Assembly (NCBI RefSeq): GCF_005771635.1
Contig: NZ_VBWP01000005.1
Coordinates: forward strand, 62,001-126,000
Direction: 5' to 3'
Length of the DNA: 64,000 bases
Source: Culicoidibacter larvae
GTDB taxonomy: Bacteria > Bacillota_I > Bacilli_A > Culicoidibacterales > Culicoidibacteraceae
In this document: one piece after another, positions 11,312 through 46,007 of the stretch
Position numbering within the stretch: the stretch's first letter is position 1
How the letters are laid out: every line of letters starts with the position of its first letter
The notes under the pieces: model-generated
Told to the model about the DNA's origin: nothing
Databases searched by the model: none
The model's input: the letters and a program-made list of their open reading frames with translations, nothing else
Program-made: the position numbers and the translations under genes

Positions 11312-11365
11312 TTATACCGATGCCTCCCGTCTCAAGTTTTAGATACAATCTGTTTTTGGAACGAA

Positions 11366-11410
11366 AGAAAGCTTTATCTATGCTTGTATGCTCATCAGAT
11401 AAAGCTTTCT
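11366..11410 (-). terminator. Hairpin between oppA1 and oppB
   Basis: A 14-base stem (AGAAAGCTTTATCT with its complement) around a loop of about 17 bases, followed by TTCGTTCC rather than a clean T-run. A leaky terminator or mRNA-stabilising stem fits its place after a binding-protein gene. Confidence 0.7.
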
Positions 11411-11442
11411 CATTCGGATACGTTTGTATCATTTACTAAAAA

Positions 11443-19408: not shown

Positions 19409-19532
19409 GACTGATTGAAAACGTTTGAAATTACAAAAAATCGGCAAAAGTTGTGATTGAGCGTATCTCGACATACGTGATTGAGCAAGTTTTGTCAATT
19501 TTTATGGAATTGCGAGCGTTTCTCAACAGACT
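19409..19532. repeat. Foldback repeat, copy A
   Basis: About 124 bases that fold into one long imperfect hairpin. The outer arms pair from GACTGATTGAAAACG inward against the complement of CGTTTCTCAACAGAC. Next come ATTACAAAAAATCGGCAAAA against the TTTTGTCAATTTTTATGGAAT side. At the apex GTGATTGAGC occurs at 19453-19462 and again at 19477-19486 in the same orientation, so the two copies face each other as an unpaired internal loop below a GTAT/ATAC tip. A related copy lies at 44519-44640. No coding potential is evident. Confidence 0.75.
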
Positions 19533-19536
19533 GAGC

Positions 19537-19563
19537 AATAAAAAGCGACAATCGCTTCTTTAT
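19537..19563 (-). terminator. Terminator after the 19560-20129 gene
   Basis: AAGCGA-TTG-TCGCTT followed by TTTATTGCTC on minus, overlapping the stop codon. Confidence 0.65.
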
Positions 19564-20129
19564 TGCCGCTCTTCCCCGCCATCAGTCATAAGCTGAATAG
19601 CCTTAAGTGGTGCTACCGGATTCATTTGCAACATCACTGAATCACCAAGATTAACGCGTTGCTCCACACTAACCGGAACCGCCAATCGCAAAGGAAAAAT
19701 ACTTCTGGTCTCAACCTCGAGCTCCAGTCCATTCACTGCCAGTACTCTGGCACCAACTTGCAAAACCGGCAAATCTTCAACCCGCAAGACCGCTAAATCA
19801 TCTACAAATTGATAACTACCGCTAACCTCATCGTATTCAATAGCCAAGGTTCGCATCACCATAAACTCACTAATGCCAAATACATCCTCCAAGTAAATCT
19901 GCTTACCATTCTTTAAAGTAATAAAAAATGAAACCTGAACTTGAAAATCATTAATAACCCGGGCAGCGGTAATTGTTGCCGGAAATATTGGCCACGGACT
20001 ATTCTGAGTTATCCGTGCCAGCACCCTCGCCTGACGGCGACGGCGATTATAATGAATTAACCATGTAACTGCCACCAAAATTACCAGTACAAAACCGATA
20101 ATTAAAAGCACTTCATACGAACCAAACAT
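19560..20129 (-). CDS. Membrane-anchored protein of unknown function
   Basis: A 189-residue protein that I do not recognise. One hydrophobic helix spans residues 7-26 (VLLIIGFVLVILVAVTWLIH), followed by an arginine-rich stretch RRRRQAR that places the remainder in the cytoplasm. The remainder (about 40-189) is rich in alternating hydrophobic residues and looks beta-stranded, as in OB-fold or SH3-like domains. RBS GGGTGGTGATTGG precedes the ATG. It stands alone between the flavodoxin gene and ispE and is followed by a terminator and the foldback repeat. Confidence 0.7.
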   Translation of the reverse strand: MFGSYEVLLIIGFVLVILVAVTWLIHYNRRRRQARVLARITQNSPWPIFPATITAARVINDFQVQVSFFITLKNGKQIYLEDVFGISEFMVMRTLAIEYDEVSGSYQFVDDLAVLRVEDLPVLQVGARVLAVNGLELEVETRSIFPLRLAVPVSVEQRVNLGDSVMLQMNPVAPLKAIQLMTDGGEERQ

Positions 20130-23137: not shown

Positions 23138-23242
23138 CTCTCATCTCCCAAAGAAGTACTTCTTTGCAGGAATTAGCACCTTGTACATTGTACAGGTTGC
23201 CGGGCATCATCGGGCCAGTCCCTCCGCCACTCTGGATAAGAG
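23138..23242 (-). ncRNA. SAM-I (S-box) riboswitch aptamer
   Basis: On the minus strand the P1 helix is CTCTTATC (5' side, at 23242) with GATGAGAG (3' side, at 23138). The conserved core follows P1: AGAGTGGCGGAGGGA, then GGCCCGATGATGCCCGGCAA with the kink-turn and pseudoknot parts, then the P3 stem CTTGTAC-like pair and a P4 hairpin (AAAGAAGTACTTCTTTG). This order is diagnostic of the S-box. The terminator at 23090-23115 completes it. By analogy, high SAM switches off the dipeptidase-metQ operon. Confidence 0.95.
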
Positions 23243-30510: not shown

Positions 30511-32187
30511 TTATGTTGTTAATATTTTAAATAGCTTCGTGTATTCTTCAAGTATTCTGTCTGCTAAATCGTTAGTACGAACATCAATATCTTTTGCCGA
30601 AAAAGTATTGTCATATTTACTTAAAAAATCTTTTACATTCCCTATCGAGCTTTGTTCATTATATTTGACTATTTTCCTTTCAATAGGGTATTCTCCAAAA
30701 TCATCATGAGTTACTAATAAAATATTTCCTAAATTGAATCTATTAGTTATTGTGTCATCAGATTGGCAATGGATATGTTCAATAAATTCTTGATTGAAAT
30801 CATTAAATAATACTTTAAAGATCCCTCTTGCAATCTTCTTTTCTTTTTTAGCTTCATCATTTATTTCCATTTCCAATAAGCTGGCTTTAATTTGTGCTAA
30901 TTCTCCCTTTAAGTAAATATTTTCGGTGAACTTTTTAATTTGACTTGAAATATTTTTGGGGGTATAGTTATCACTTATTTTTTTTGCTAACCCATAAATC
31001 TGAATACCATATGCTGAAGGACTTTTATTAATTATTGAATAAAATAAATTATGTATAACAATAAATCTAATAAATGTCTGGATTTTTGGTGATTTAGGGT
31101 AATTACTTAACATTGAAACCAGCACATTTTTTTTTGATTTTGGCACATATAAAAGGCTAAATAAAAGAATATCAAATTGTTTCACACTCAAAGATTTTAT
31201 AATATCCCAGTCGCTACTGATCACATTGATTCCAGCATCAATAATATCTTGATTAAATGGTGAAGCGATTGGCAATCTTTTTATTGATTCATATAATCTA
31301 TATGGAGCAATGTCACCAACAGAACGTGTAAGTAAATCAAAAGTCGTAGTTGCAGTATCTTCATCGTTGACAGTATTCAAGATATCCTCAAAAACCTTTG
31401 TTTTTTCTTTTGGAGGTGCACCGGAAAATACTATATTCTTTCTAAGTTGCCACATATCCTTTATATAATTTTCTGTATTACCTTGTAGAATGCCCACCAT
31501 ATCGCCCCAAGTCTCCTTAAATATGTCTGCATTATCAGCTTCGGGAAGTAAAAATTTAAAAAGATGACTCTTTATTATTGCATCCTTAGAGAGTGGAATC
31601 CCTTTAGTATTTAAATCTATAAAGATTTCATGCGCTTTACTTTCTTCATCAAATGTAATCAGAACTAGTTTAGTATTTTTAAAATTTTCGATTATTAAAG
31701 TAAGAATACCTGGTTCCTCTTGCTTCATCTTTTTTAATAAAGTAACCAGACTCTCTAATCGTTTGTTTTCGTTTGCTAACTTCATTGTTTCTGGCATTTC
31801 TCCAGATAACATAAATTCAATAATATTGTTGTGAGCTGCTTGCGCTCTCATCTCAAGCTCCACTTTTACTTGACCAGTATTTGTAAAAATAAGTTTATTA
31901 TCAACACATTCAGGTTCTAGCTTATAAACTGCAATGAGTAGTAAGAATATACTGATAAAACGTTGTTGTCCATCAATTACATCATATTTTATTTCATTAT
32001 CGTCACTCTTATCTACTAACACAATATTACCAAAATAGTGATAATTATTAGAACTTGCGCTGACTATATCCTCAACAAGTTTTTTAACCTCTTTGTTAGT
32101 CCACGCGTATTCGCGCTGATATCTAGGAATAATATATCTGGTCTCTTTCGAAAAAATTCTTTCTATACTTCTATCTTCTGCTTTCAT
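30511..32187 (-). CDS. DUF262 (GmrSD-like) putative nuclease/NTPase
   Basis: A 558-residue protein of the DUF262 family found in type IV restriction enzymes (GmrSD, BrxU, SspE). The N-terminal domain has IPRYQREYAWT at 20-30 and the DGQQR motif at 72-76, the ParB-like nucleotide-handling site. FIDLNTKGIPLSKDAIIKSHLF is the second conserved block. The C-terminus resembles a DUF1524 HNH domain: IEHIHCQ and NRFNLGNILLV align with the usual EHxxPQ and LGNLTLL, but the later asparagine residues are not evident, so nuclease activity is uncertain. It is third in the island operon, 62 bases after AIPR and 4 before the methyltransferase. An AGAGAGG site precedes the ATG. Confidence 0.87.
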   Translation of the reverse strand: MKAEDRSIERIFSKETRYIIPRYQREYAWTNKEVKKLVEDIVSASSNNYHYFGNIVLVDKSDDNEIKYDVIDGQQRFISIFLLLIAVYKLEPECVDNKLIFTNTGQVKVELEMRAQAAHNNIIEFMLSGEMPETMKLANENKRLESLVTLLKKMKQEEPGILTLIIENFKNTKLVLITFDEESKAHEIFIDLNTKGIPLSKDAIIKSHLFKFLLPEADNADIFKETWGDMVGILQGNTENYIKDMWQLRKNIVFSGAPPKEKTKVFEDILNTVNDEDTATTTFDLLTRSVGDIAPYRLYESIKRLPIASPFNQDIIDAGINVISSDWDIIKSLSVKQFDILLFSLLYVPKSKKNVLVSMLSNYPKSPKIQTFIRFIVIHNLFYSIINKSPSAYGIQIYGLAKKISDNYTPKNISSQIKKFTENIYLKGELAQIKASLLEMEINDEAKKEKKIARGIFKVLFNDFNQEFIEHIHCQSDDTITNRFNLGNILLVTHDDFGEYPIERKIVKYNEQSSIGNVKDFLSKYDNTFSAKDIDVRTNDLADRILEEYTKLFKILTT

Positions 32188-44490: not shown

Positions 44491-44517
44491 AATAGGCGGA
44501 CCCAAGGTCCGCCTAAT
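44491..44517 (-). terminator. Terminator of the two-component operon
   Basis: AATAGGCGGACC with its complement around a 3-base loop, then TTTTCTTTTTCTCC on minus. It follows the foldback repeat. Confidence 0.9.
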
Positions 44518-44518
44518 A

Positions 44519-44640
44519 GAGTGATTGAAAACGATTGAAATCGTAGGAAATGGATAAGAGCTGTGATTGAGCGTATATAAACATACGTGATTGAGCAGAT
44601 TTTATTCATTTTCTTAGATTGCGAGCGTTTTACAACACTC
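44519..44640. repeat. Foldback repeat, copy B
   Basis: About 122 bases, related to copy A at 19409-19532. The arms are imperfect inverted repeats over their length: GAGTGATTGAAAACG against GAGTGTTGTAAAACG, then AAATCGTAGGAAATGGATAA against CAATCTAAGAAAATGAATAA. The apex is CGTAT-ATAAAC-ATACG, flanked on both sides by TGATTGAG in the same orientation (44563-44572 and 44587-44596), facing each other as an internal loop. It begins 2 bases after the histidine kinase stop codon and precedes the terminator, so it is part of the kinase mRNA 3' end. Confidence 0.75.
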
Positions 44641-44642
44641 CA

Positions 44643-46007
44643 TTATTTTGGCAATTTAATCAAAAATCGAGTCCCCTTCGGCTGATTATGAACCGCCTTA
44701 ATTGAGCCATCATGACTCTCAACAATCCAAGACGCAATCGAAAGTCCTAATCCGCTGCCACCCTGAGCACGACTGCGTGCCTTATCTTCACGATAGAAGC
44801 GATTGAAAATTTGTTTTAAGCTCTCATCACTGACACCAACGCCAGTATCAGCAATACTGATTTCAATTTTACTATCCTTTTTAGCGGTTTCAATAGTAAT
44901 ACTGCCTCCTGCCGGCGTGTATTTAATCGCATTATCCAAAAGAATAATAATTAATTGCTGAATTCTAGCTTTATCGGCATGAATCATCAACTCATCGGCC
45001 ATATCAAAAGTGACCGTTTTCTCTTCAGCTTCAGCAATATCAGAGTAAGGCATGGCAATATTGCGAATAACTTCATTGATATTAAATGACTCTTTTTCTA
45101 ACTCTGTCTGACCTGACTCGGCGCGAGCTAAGGTCAGTAAATCACTTGTCAGCTTCGCAAGCCGGCGCACTTCACTCAATGTAATAGCTATTGCCTCACT
45201 CTCGTTGATAATCTTTTCATTTGGCTTAGTCAGCAGCAACTCTTGTTTGTTCTGAATAACCGTGAGCGGCGTGCGCAGCTCATGCGATGCATTCTCCACA
45301 AACTCATTCTGCCGATGCCAAGCCTCTAAAATCGGCTTCATTGTTCGCCGCGAAAGCAAGTAACTAATGGTAATTGACAATATAACAAACAGCACAACAC
45401 AAATACTCAGGATCTGAACAAAATTACTAAGCGTATTTTGTTCACCATCAACATTAATCAACAGTTGAACATAGTAATCAGTACCATCAACCGTGATTGG
45501 AAAACTTAATTCACGGAATTGATTATTATTAATTGCAACTGCAAAAATAGTGCCATCAGCTTGAGCCGGATCAAAAGCTAAATGACTATAATAATTATCG
45601 TAAGCACTCTGACCGAGACTGCCTGAGTTTAGAATATTACCGTCTTGGTCACGAATAATTTTCGCAACCCGGAAACTATCCTTAGCATCATCAATTGGCG
45701 GTTGCATATTCTCAGTACTATCACTATTCTTACTGGTATCAACATTTTCACCAATACCGATATCTTTTGGACCGTCGTCTTTTCTTGGCCCGAAATCCTT
45801 GCCATACAATTCTTTATTAAAAAAAGCTTCATTAGATTGCATTAATTCCATTGTTGAACGCAAGTCATTATCAACTTTACTGTATAAAGCATTACTCATT
45901 TGCGAGAAAATAATAGCACCAAATGCGCTGAACACCAAGGTAAAAGCAAGAAAGTTATATAACATCCCTTTTACTAACTGACGCTGAATTAATTTTTGCT
46001 CACGCAT
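44643..46007 (-). CDS. Two-component sensor histidine kinase
   Basis: A 454-residue membrane kinase. The first helix is at about 15-35 and the second at about 197-220, with an extracellular sensor domain of about 160 residues between them rich in Asp and Asn. No HAMP motif is obvious. The H-box FVENASHELRTPLTVIQNK carries the phosphorylated His, followed by N-box DNAIKYTP, G1 DTGVGVSD and G2 GGSGLGLSIA. The start overlaps the response-regulator stop by one base (TAATG). It may sense envelope stress and control the neighbouring ABC-PASTA operon; that is inference from position. Confidence 0.9.
   Translation of the reverse strand: MREQKLIQRQLVKGMLYNFLAFTLVFSAFGAIIFSQMSNALYSKVDNDLRSTMELMQSNEAFFNKELYGKDFGPRKDDGPKDIGIGENVDTSKNSDSTENMQPPIDDAKDSFRVAKIIRDQDGNILNSGSLGQSAYDNYYSHLAFDPAQADGTIFAVAINNNQFRELSFPITVDGTDYYVQLLINVDGEQNTLSNFVQILSICVVLFVILSITISYLLSRRTMKPILEAWHRQNEFVENASHELRTPLTVIQNKQELLLTKPNEKIINESEAIAITLSEVRRLAKLTSDLLTLARAESGQTELEKESFNINEVIRNIAMPYSDIAEAEEKTVTFDMADELMIHADKARIQQLIIILLDNAIKYTPAGGSITIETAKKDSKIEISIADTGVGVSDESLKQIFNRFYREDKARSRAQGGSGLGLSIASWIVESHDGSIKAVHNQPKGTRFLIKLPK

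Follow-up and report, generated by a model that had tools for sequence, protein, structure and literature searches.

The foldback sequence lying directly behind a histidine kinase gene of Culicoidibacter larvae (copy B) is probably a copy of a dispersed mobile hairpin, non-autonomous and of the ERIC (IRU) type. It lies in a window of 64,000 nucleotides, by which we mean the whole stretch of DNA analyzed (contig NZ_VBWP01000005.1), where an earlier note had described it, along with a second copy (copy A), as a structure possibly maintained by selection. This original observation was correct and understated, as about 38 copies of the approximately 125-nt element are present across the genome assembly (2.5 Mb, 33 contigs) and their covariation goes beyond both controls applied. 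The kind of element, an ERIC-like dispersed hairpin, is already known; no description of this particular family, of its group of hosts or of the common apex was found in the searchable literature.

Copy B folded as a single hairpin over its full length at -48.7 kcal/mol, compared to -24.4 ± 3.5 kcal/mol for shuffled sequences (z -6.95), none of the 200 shuffles reaching the native fold, and the opposite (-) strand attained only -30.9 kcal/mol. The two copies are 78% identical, and the cited change of the arms with retained pairing was recovered in the alignment, where columns 5/126 are C-G in copy A and G-C in copy B. Both copies do lie directly downstream of minus-strand genes, as had been noticed: copy B adjoins the stop codon TAA (44645-44643) of the histidine kinase gene, and copy A begins 31 nt past the gene at 19560-20129. 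Their reported closeness to terminators held for copy B, on the - strand, and is less clear for copy A, where terminator-like sites are found on the + strand only. The features are collected in Table 1, in which R1 denotes a covariance model built from 21 copies of the host genome alone. Elsewhere in the window, a weak R1 match (11327-11439, - strand, 16.4 bits) is perhaps a decayed third copy or due to chance, and the window also carries a SAM riboswitch (23138-23242, - strand, 93.8 bits) and a GmrSD-type restriction protein (GmrSD_N; 30511-32187, - strand).

Table 1. Positions, in window coordinates, of the two hairpin copies and of the features at copy B.
Feature	Position	Strand	Basis
Copy B, whole hairpin element	44519..44641	+ (structural strand)	fold; R1 covariance model 129 bits; genome copies
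Copy A, same element	19409..19528	+	R1 116 bits
Apex stem-loop GCGUAU-AUAAAC-AUACGU, G.U-closed	44571..44588	+	A1 alignment columns 57-74, paired bases invariant 21/21
Double tandem G.A motif, 5' side (GA-UU-GA)	44565..44570	+	
Double tandem G.A motif, 3' side (GA-UU-GA)	44589..44594	+	
Second conserved internal loop, 5' side: GUAGG (AAAGG in other copies, AAGG in relatives/ERIC)	44543..44547	+	
Second internal loop, 3' side: CUUAG	44613..44617	+	
Histidine kinase gene (HisKA + HATPase_c), stop codon abuts copy B	44643..46007	-	
Intrinsic terminator, just downstream of copy B on the histidine kinase strand	44493..44515	-	

The distribution of the element is narrow among the relatives of its host. 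R1 found no copy in 19 related genomes from the same family, order or class, and the apex pattern, sought in 392 genomes of the phylum, gave 29 exact matches in the host genome, against one or none in each of the others. The reversed-pattern control gave 0 matches in the host genome, and the single matches in other genomes are at chance level. The family in the host genome is therefore a lineage-specific amplification. No match was obtained for the element in Rfam, at gathering or permissive thresholds, or by blastn against plasmids and phages, and the apex was not found in IMG/VR viral contigs. Ten copies (L006, L008, L018, L020, L023, L024, L026, L241, L245, L246) carry an extra arm module of 25-50 nt; these modules share CAC-N-CAAGG(G)-ACT and a small hairpin and are placed at a few fixed positions of the stem.

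Selection on the structure, suggested earlier from two copies, was supported across the genome copies, as their covariation exceeds both the shuffle and the slid-partner control. RNAalifold on the 21 aligned copies gave 39 pairs, 22 of them with two-sided changes. Standard pairs filled 96.7% of the pair cells (85.5% after shuffling), the covariation score was 0.411 vs 0.177 and the double-change cells were 97 vs 28; none of 500 shuffles was as high as the observed covariation and slid partners were far lower. The shuffle control is inflated by the relatedness of the copies and the slid-partner control leans likewise, because the structure was derived from the same sequences, but the gap is large on every measure despite these biases. 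In the 21 copies G-U cells numbered 102 and A-C cells 7, and the + strand folded better in 36 of the 38 copies (mean -49.2 vs -35.0 kcal/mol, p 2e-7), so that selection acts on one folded strand and not on a symmetric DNA palindrome. The strand-specific covariation thus points to a folded single strand, rather than duplex DNA, as the functional object.

The apex consists of six invariant pairs, GCGUAU/AUACGU, the last of which is G.U in 21 of 21 copies. Below this stem, a tandem G.A/A.G is present in 19-20 of the 21 copies, followed by two positions where U.U,U.U alternates with mostly G-C,G-C and by a second tandem G.A/A.G. That U.U gives way to Watson-Crick pairs between G.A motifs that both stay fixed is good evidence for a helix stacking through the mismatches.

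The copies are intergenic and lie in both orientations relative to genes, with compensatory pairs in their arms; the pattern that the earlier note had set against its own reading, that of copies placed randomly within genes and lacking compensation, was absent. With genes called as simple ORFs, so that individual cases may be wrong, both neighboring genes lie opposite the structural strand for 23 of the 38 copies and on that same strand for 9 (p 0.02), and the other 6 copies have divergent or convergent neighbors. The element edge coincides with the stop codon of a gene in 17 copies, and this codon is TAA or TAG in 16 of them. Such positions, and that of copy B between a stop codon and a terminator, would agree with a 3' mRNA stabilizing or regulatory hairpin, as alternatively proposed in the earlier note; such a hairpin would serve the host as a 3' UTR module, protecting or terminating its transcripts. 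However, where both neighbors are co-directional, the stable strand is antisense to them in 23 of 32 copies and sense in 9, which argues against a sense-strand 3' stabilizer and for a tolerated insertion behind genes; moreover, the opposite strand is about 14 kcal/mol less stable and the element is absent from the relatives searched, and we consider this explanation distinctly unlikely. Even less probable is a reading in which each copy would be an independent gene for a structured regulatory RNA (sRNA or riboswitch-like). The strong covariation and the conserved loop motifs would speak for it; against it stand the lack of an Rfam match, the occurrence in both orientations to genes and a search for a promoter-like site at copy B that found none.

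The patchy amplification, the two orientations, the arrays in relatives and the insert-bearing variants point to mobility. The proposal of a mobile palindromic unit of REP or MITE type stood in its MITE half, in view of the copy number, the isolated distribution and the intergenic placement in both orientations, and failed in its REP half. An element of REP/BIME type, whose ssDNA hairpins a Y1 (RAYT) transposase would act on and move, would share the palindromic, intergenic and strand-specific character, but it would measure 20-40 nt, not about 125, and Y1_Tnp had no match in four copy-bearing genomes (the host genome, G020, G025 and G037), so that the linked REP-type transposase gene envisaged for the host was not found; this reading is largely refuted unless contig gaps hide the gene, and is highly improbable. 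RVT_1 had no match in the host genome either, nor had DDE_3 (PF13358, IS630-type) in the element-bearing genomes searched, host included; as far as an assembly in 33 contigs can show, the REP, retro-element and IS630 routes thus have no enzyme in the host. A classical MITE, that is, an internally deleted DNA transposon whose conserved TIRs are cut by an IS transposase (e.g., IS630, with a TA target), seems unlikely as well. TA does stand beside the element ends in several copies and the TAA/TAG stops at the border would agree with such a target, but the terminal pairs (columns 5-7/124-126) vary and covary between copies while the apex is invariant, the IS630-type enzyme was not detected, and the strand asymmetry would be unexplained. 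A search for filled and empty sites between the sister MAGs G020 and G021 yielded module exchange and ambiguous junctions, and no clean insertion: in L145 vs L190 and in L142 vs L193 the outer stem is identical and the inner hairpin is swapped for a type with apex CCUAGCGUAG..CUACGUGG, an exchange that could be explained by homologous recombination between copies. The breakpoints of a probable inversion between sister MAGs (L178 vs L194/L154) fall close to places where these hairpins cluster.

The mobile hairpin of ERIC type, which we favor, would spread via a folded single strand (RNA or ssDNA) of the + strand, recognized at its apex by a putative trans-acting factor, and the remaining stem would be kept as a paired scaffold free in sequence. 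Copies would persist where they are least harmful, immediately after stop codons and, for the most part, with the strand that folds strongly lying opposite the mRNA. In the sense orientation a secondary effect on mRNA decay is possible, as for ERIC in Yersinia, where one orientation is described as destabilizing the upstream mRNA (De Gregorio 2005, as excerpted in PMC2229807); such destabilization would select against that orientation.

Hairpins with the same apex were found in other phyla. The pattern GAGCGTAT-N6-ATACGTGA-NN-GA occurs in 44 stretches among 84,980 species genomes, compared to about 7 expected by chance in an estimate assuming uniform bases. The majority of the 44 fold as long hairpins centered on the apex match, and 25 have the outer 5' GA that the pattern does not require (chance 1 in 16). 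Multi-copy hairpins occur in Clostridia, alphaproteobacterial MAGs and others, with 26 and 21 R1 matches in two alphaproteobacterial MAGs, 17 in one clostridial genome and 7 in Clostridiaceae M8S5, whose genome is complete; these counts may contain a single copy twice, once for each strand. Copies of Clostridiaceae M8S5 (L169, L171) immediately follow 5S rRNA genes and run antisense to the rRNA operon, and some of them form short arrays. In the order of genome G025 a shorter apex pattern is present in 23 of 121 genomes, several with more than 20 copies (at most 1 for the reversed-pattern control); the last apex pair varies there as U-A, C-G or G-C, and the copies retrieved form long hairpins in which another loop is conserved as well, with AAGG(A/C) facing GAC or AAC. 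Groups seen once (Campylobacteraceae, Eggerthellaceae, Cyanobacteria, Chloroflexi) are leads only, because single MAG matches may stem from mis-binned contigs.

Known since about 1990, ERIC repeats are used for typing; we know of no established factor that moves them. In the ERICs examined, from E. coli, Kosakonia, Pantoea, Klebsiella, Rahnella, Salmonella and Serratia, the fold is CCAG-GA-GCUUAC..GUAAGU-GA-CUGG, and the apex stems covary (GCAUAG/CUAUGU, GCAUAC/GUAUGU) with the G.U and the tandem G.A fixed; an apex of this kind, a G.U-closed stem above tandem G.A, was seen in 8 ERICs. Furthermore, ERICs are also more stable on one strand. R1, built without ERICs, gave correct-strand matches to the ERIC at 9 of 11 ERIC loci (E up to 5), several of the scores being weak (9-15 bits); the best match reached 26.9 bits (E 2e-5 for 4.6 kb) in an end-to-end alignment. 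At locus L222 a slightly better R1 match lies outside the ERIC, and the only reverse-strand match among the ERIC loci falls outside the ERIC as well. With several scores this weak, sequence and fold comparison makes the relation of the element to ERIC probable and not proven, and the likeness could be a convergence on a stable tandem-G.A motif, which counts against the ERIC-type reading. As to insertion at TA, a trait of ERIC, TA stands at both ends of several copies, with no empty site for comparison. By blastn, copy B had no match in plasmids, which hold many ERICs, and in this sense showed no DNA similarity to the ERIC consensus; thus, we did not file the element as an ERIC.

We propose only tentatively that these hairpins and ERIC may belong to one cross-phylum superfamily of mobile hairpins, with a strand-specific fold, a G.U-closed apex and tandem sheared G.A, which would spread via a folded single strand and a factor common to distant bacteria, and not through TIRs cut by an IS transposase. 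The presence of the same apex in the host, clostridial and alphaproteobacterial genomes offers a comparative handle, as the genes common to them can be screened and a mutation test of the apex is feasible.

Among other known systems, the integron attC site conserves the foot of its hairpin and varies the apex; it was rejected as a candidate, since the element has the opposite pattern, with a conserved apex. REP/BIME/REPIN sequences are, like the element, extragenic palindromic repeats with a possible ssDNA intermediate, but REPs are 20-40 nt long and tied to a Y1/RAYT transposase. IS630-type MITEs (RUP, Correia-like) resemble it as palindromes of about 100-150 bp with a TA target, but need conserved terminal repeats, whereas the element has variable termini and a conserved apex. 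BOX of Streptococcus pneumoniae is also a dispersed structured repeat, modular (boxA/boxB/boxC) and devoid of a tandem-G.A apex in the one copy examined; R1 gave no match to one pneumococcal BOX copy, and BOX was rejected as a relative on this negative result. At the 3' ends of genes, the stop codon is reported to be provided in many cases by BOX itself (PMC3049150). With ERIC (IRU, RU-1) the element shares a near-complete imperfect palindrome of about 125-127 nt, intergenic, multicopy and in both orientations, the GAGC-stem-GUGA apex closed by G.U and bearing tandem G.A, a second loop whose 5' side has AAGG, and a strand-specific stability. It differs in the apex stem, which is GCGUAU/AUACGU in the element and GCUUAC/GUAAGU or GCAUAG/CUAUGU in ERIC, in its two tandem G.A motifs 2 bp apart and in the unrelated sequence of its arms, and it belongs to a different phylum: a 2024 review places ERIC in Enterobacteriaceae and Vibrionaceae (PMC10969869), whereas the host of the element and its relatives are not enterobacteria.
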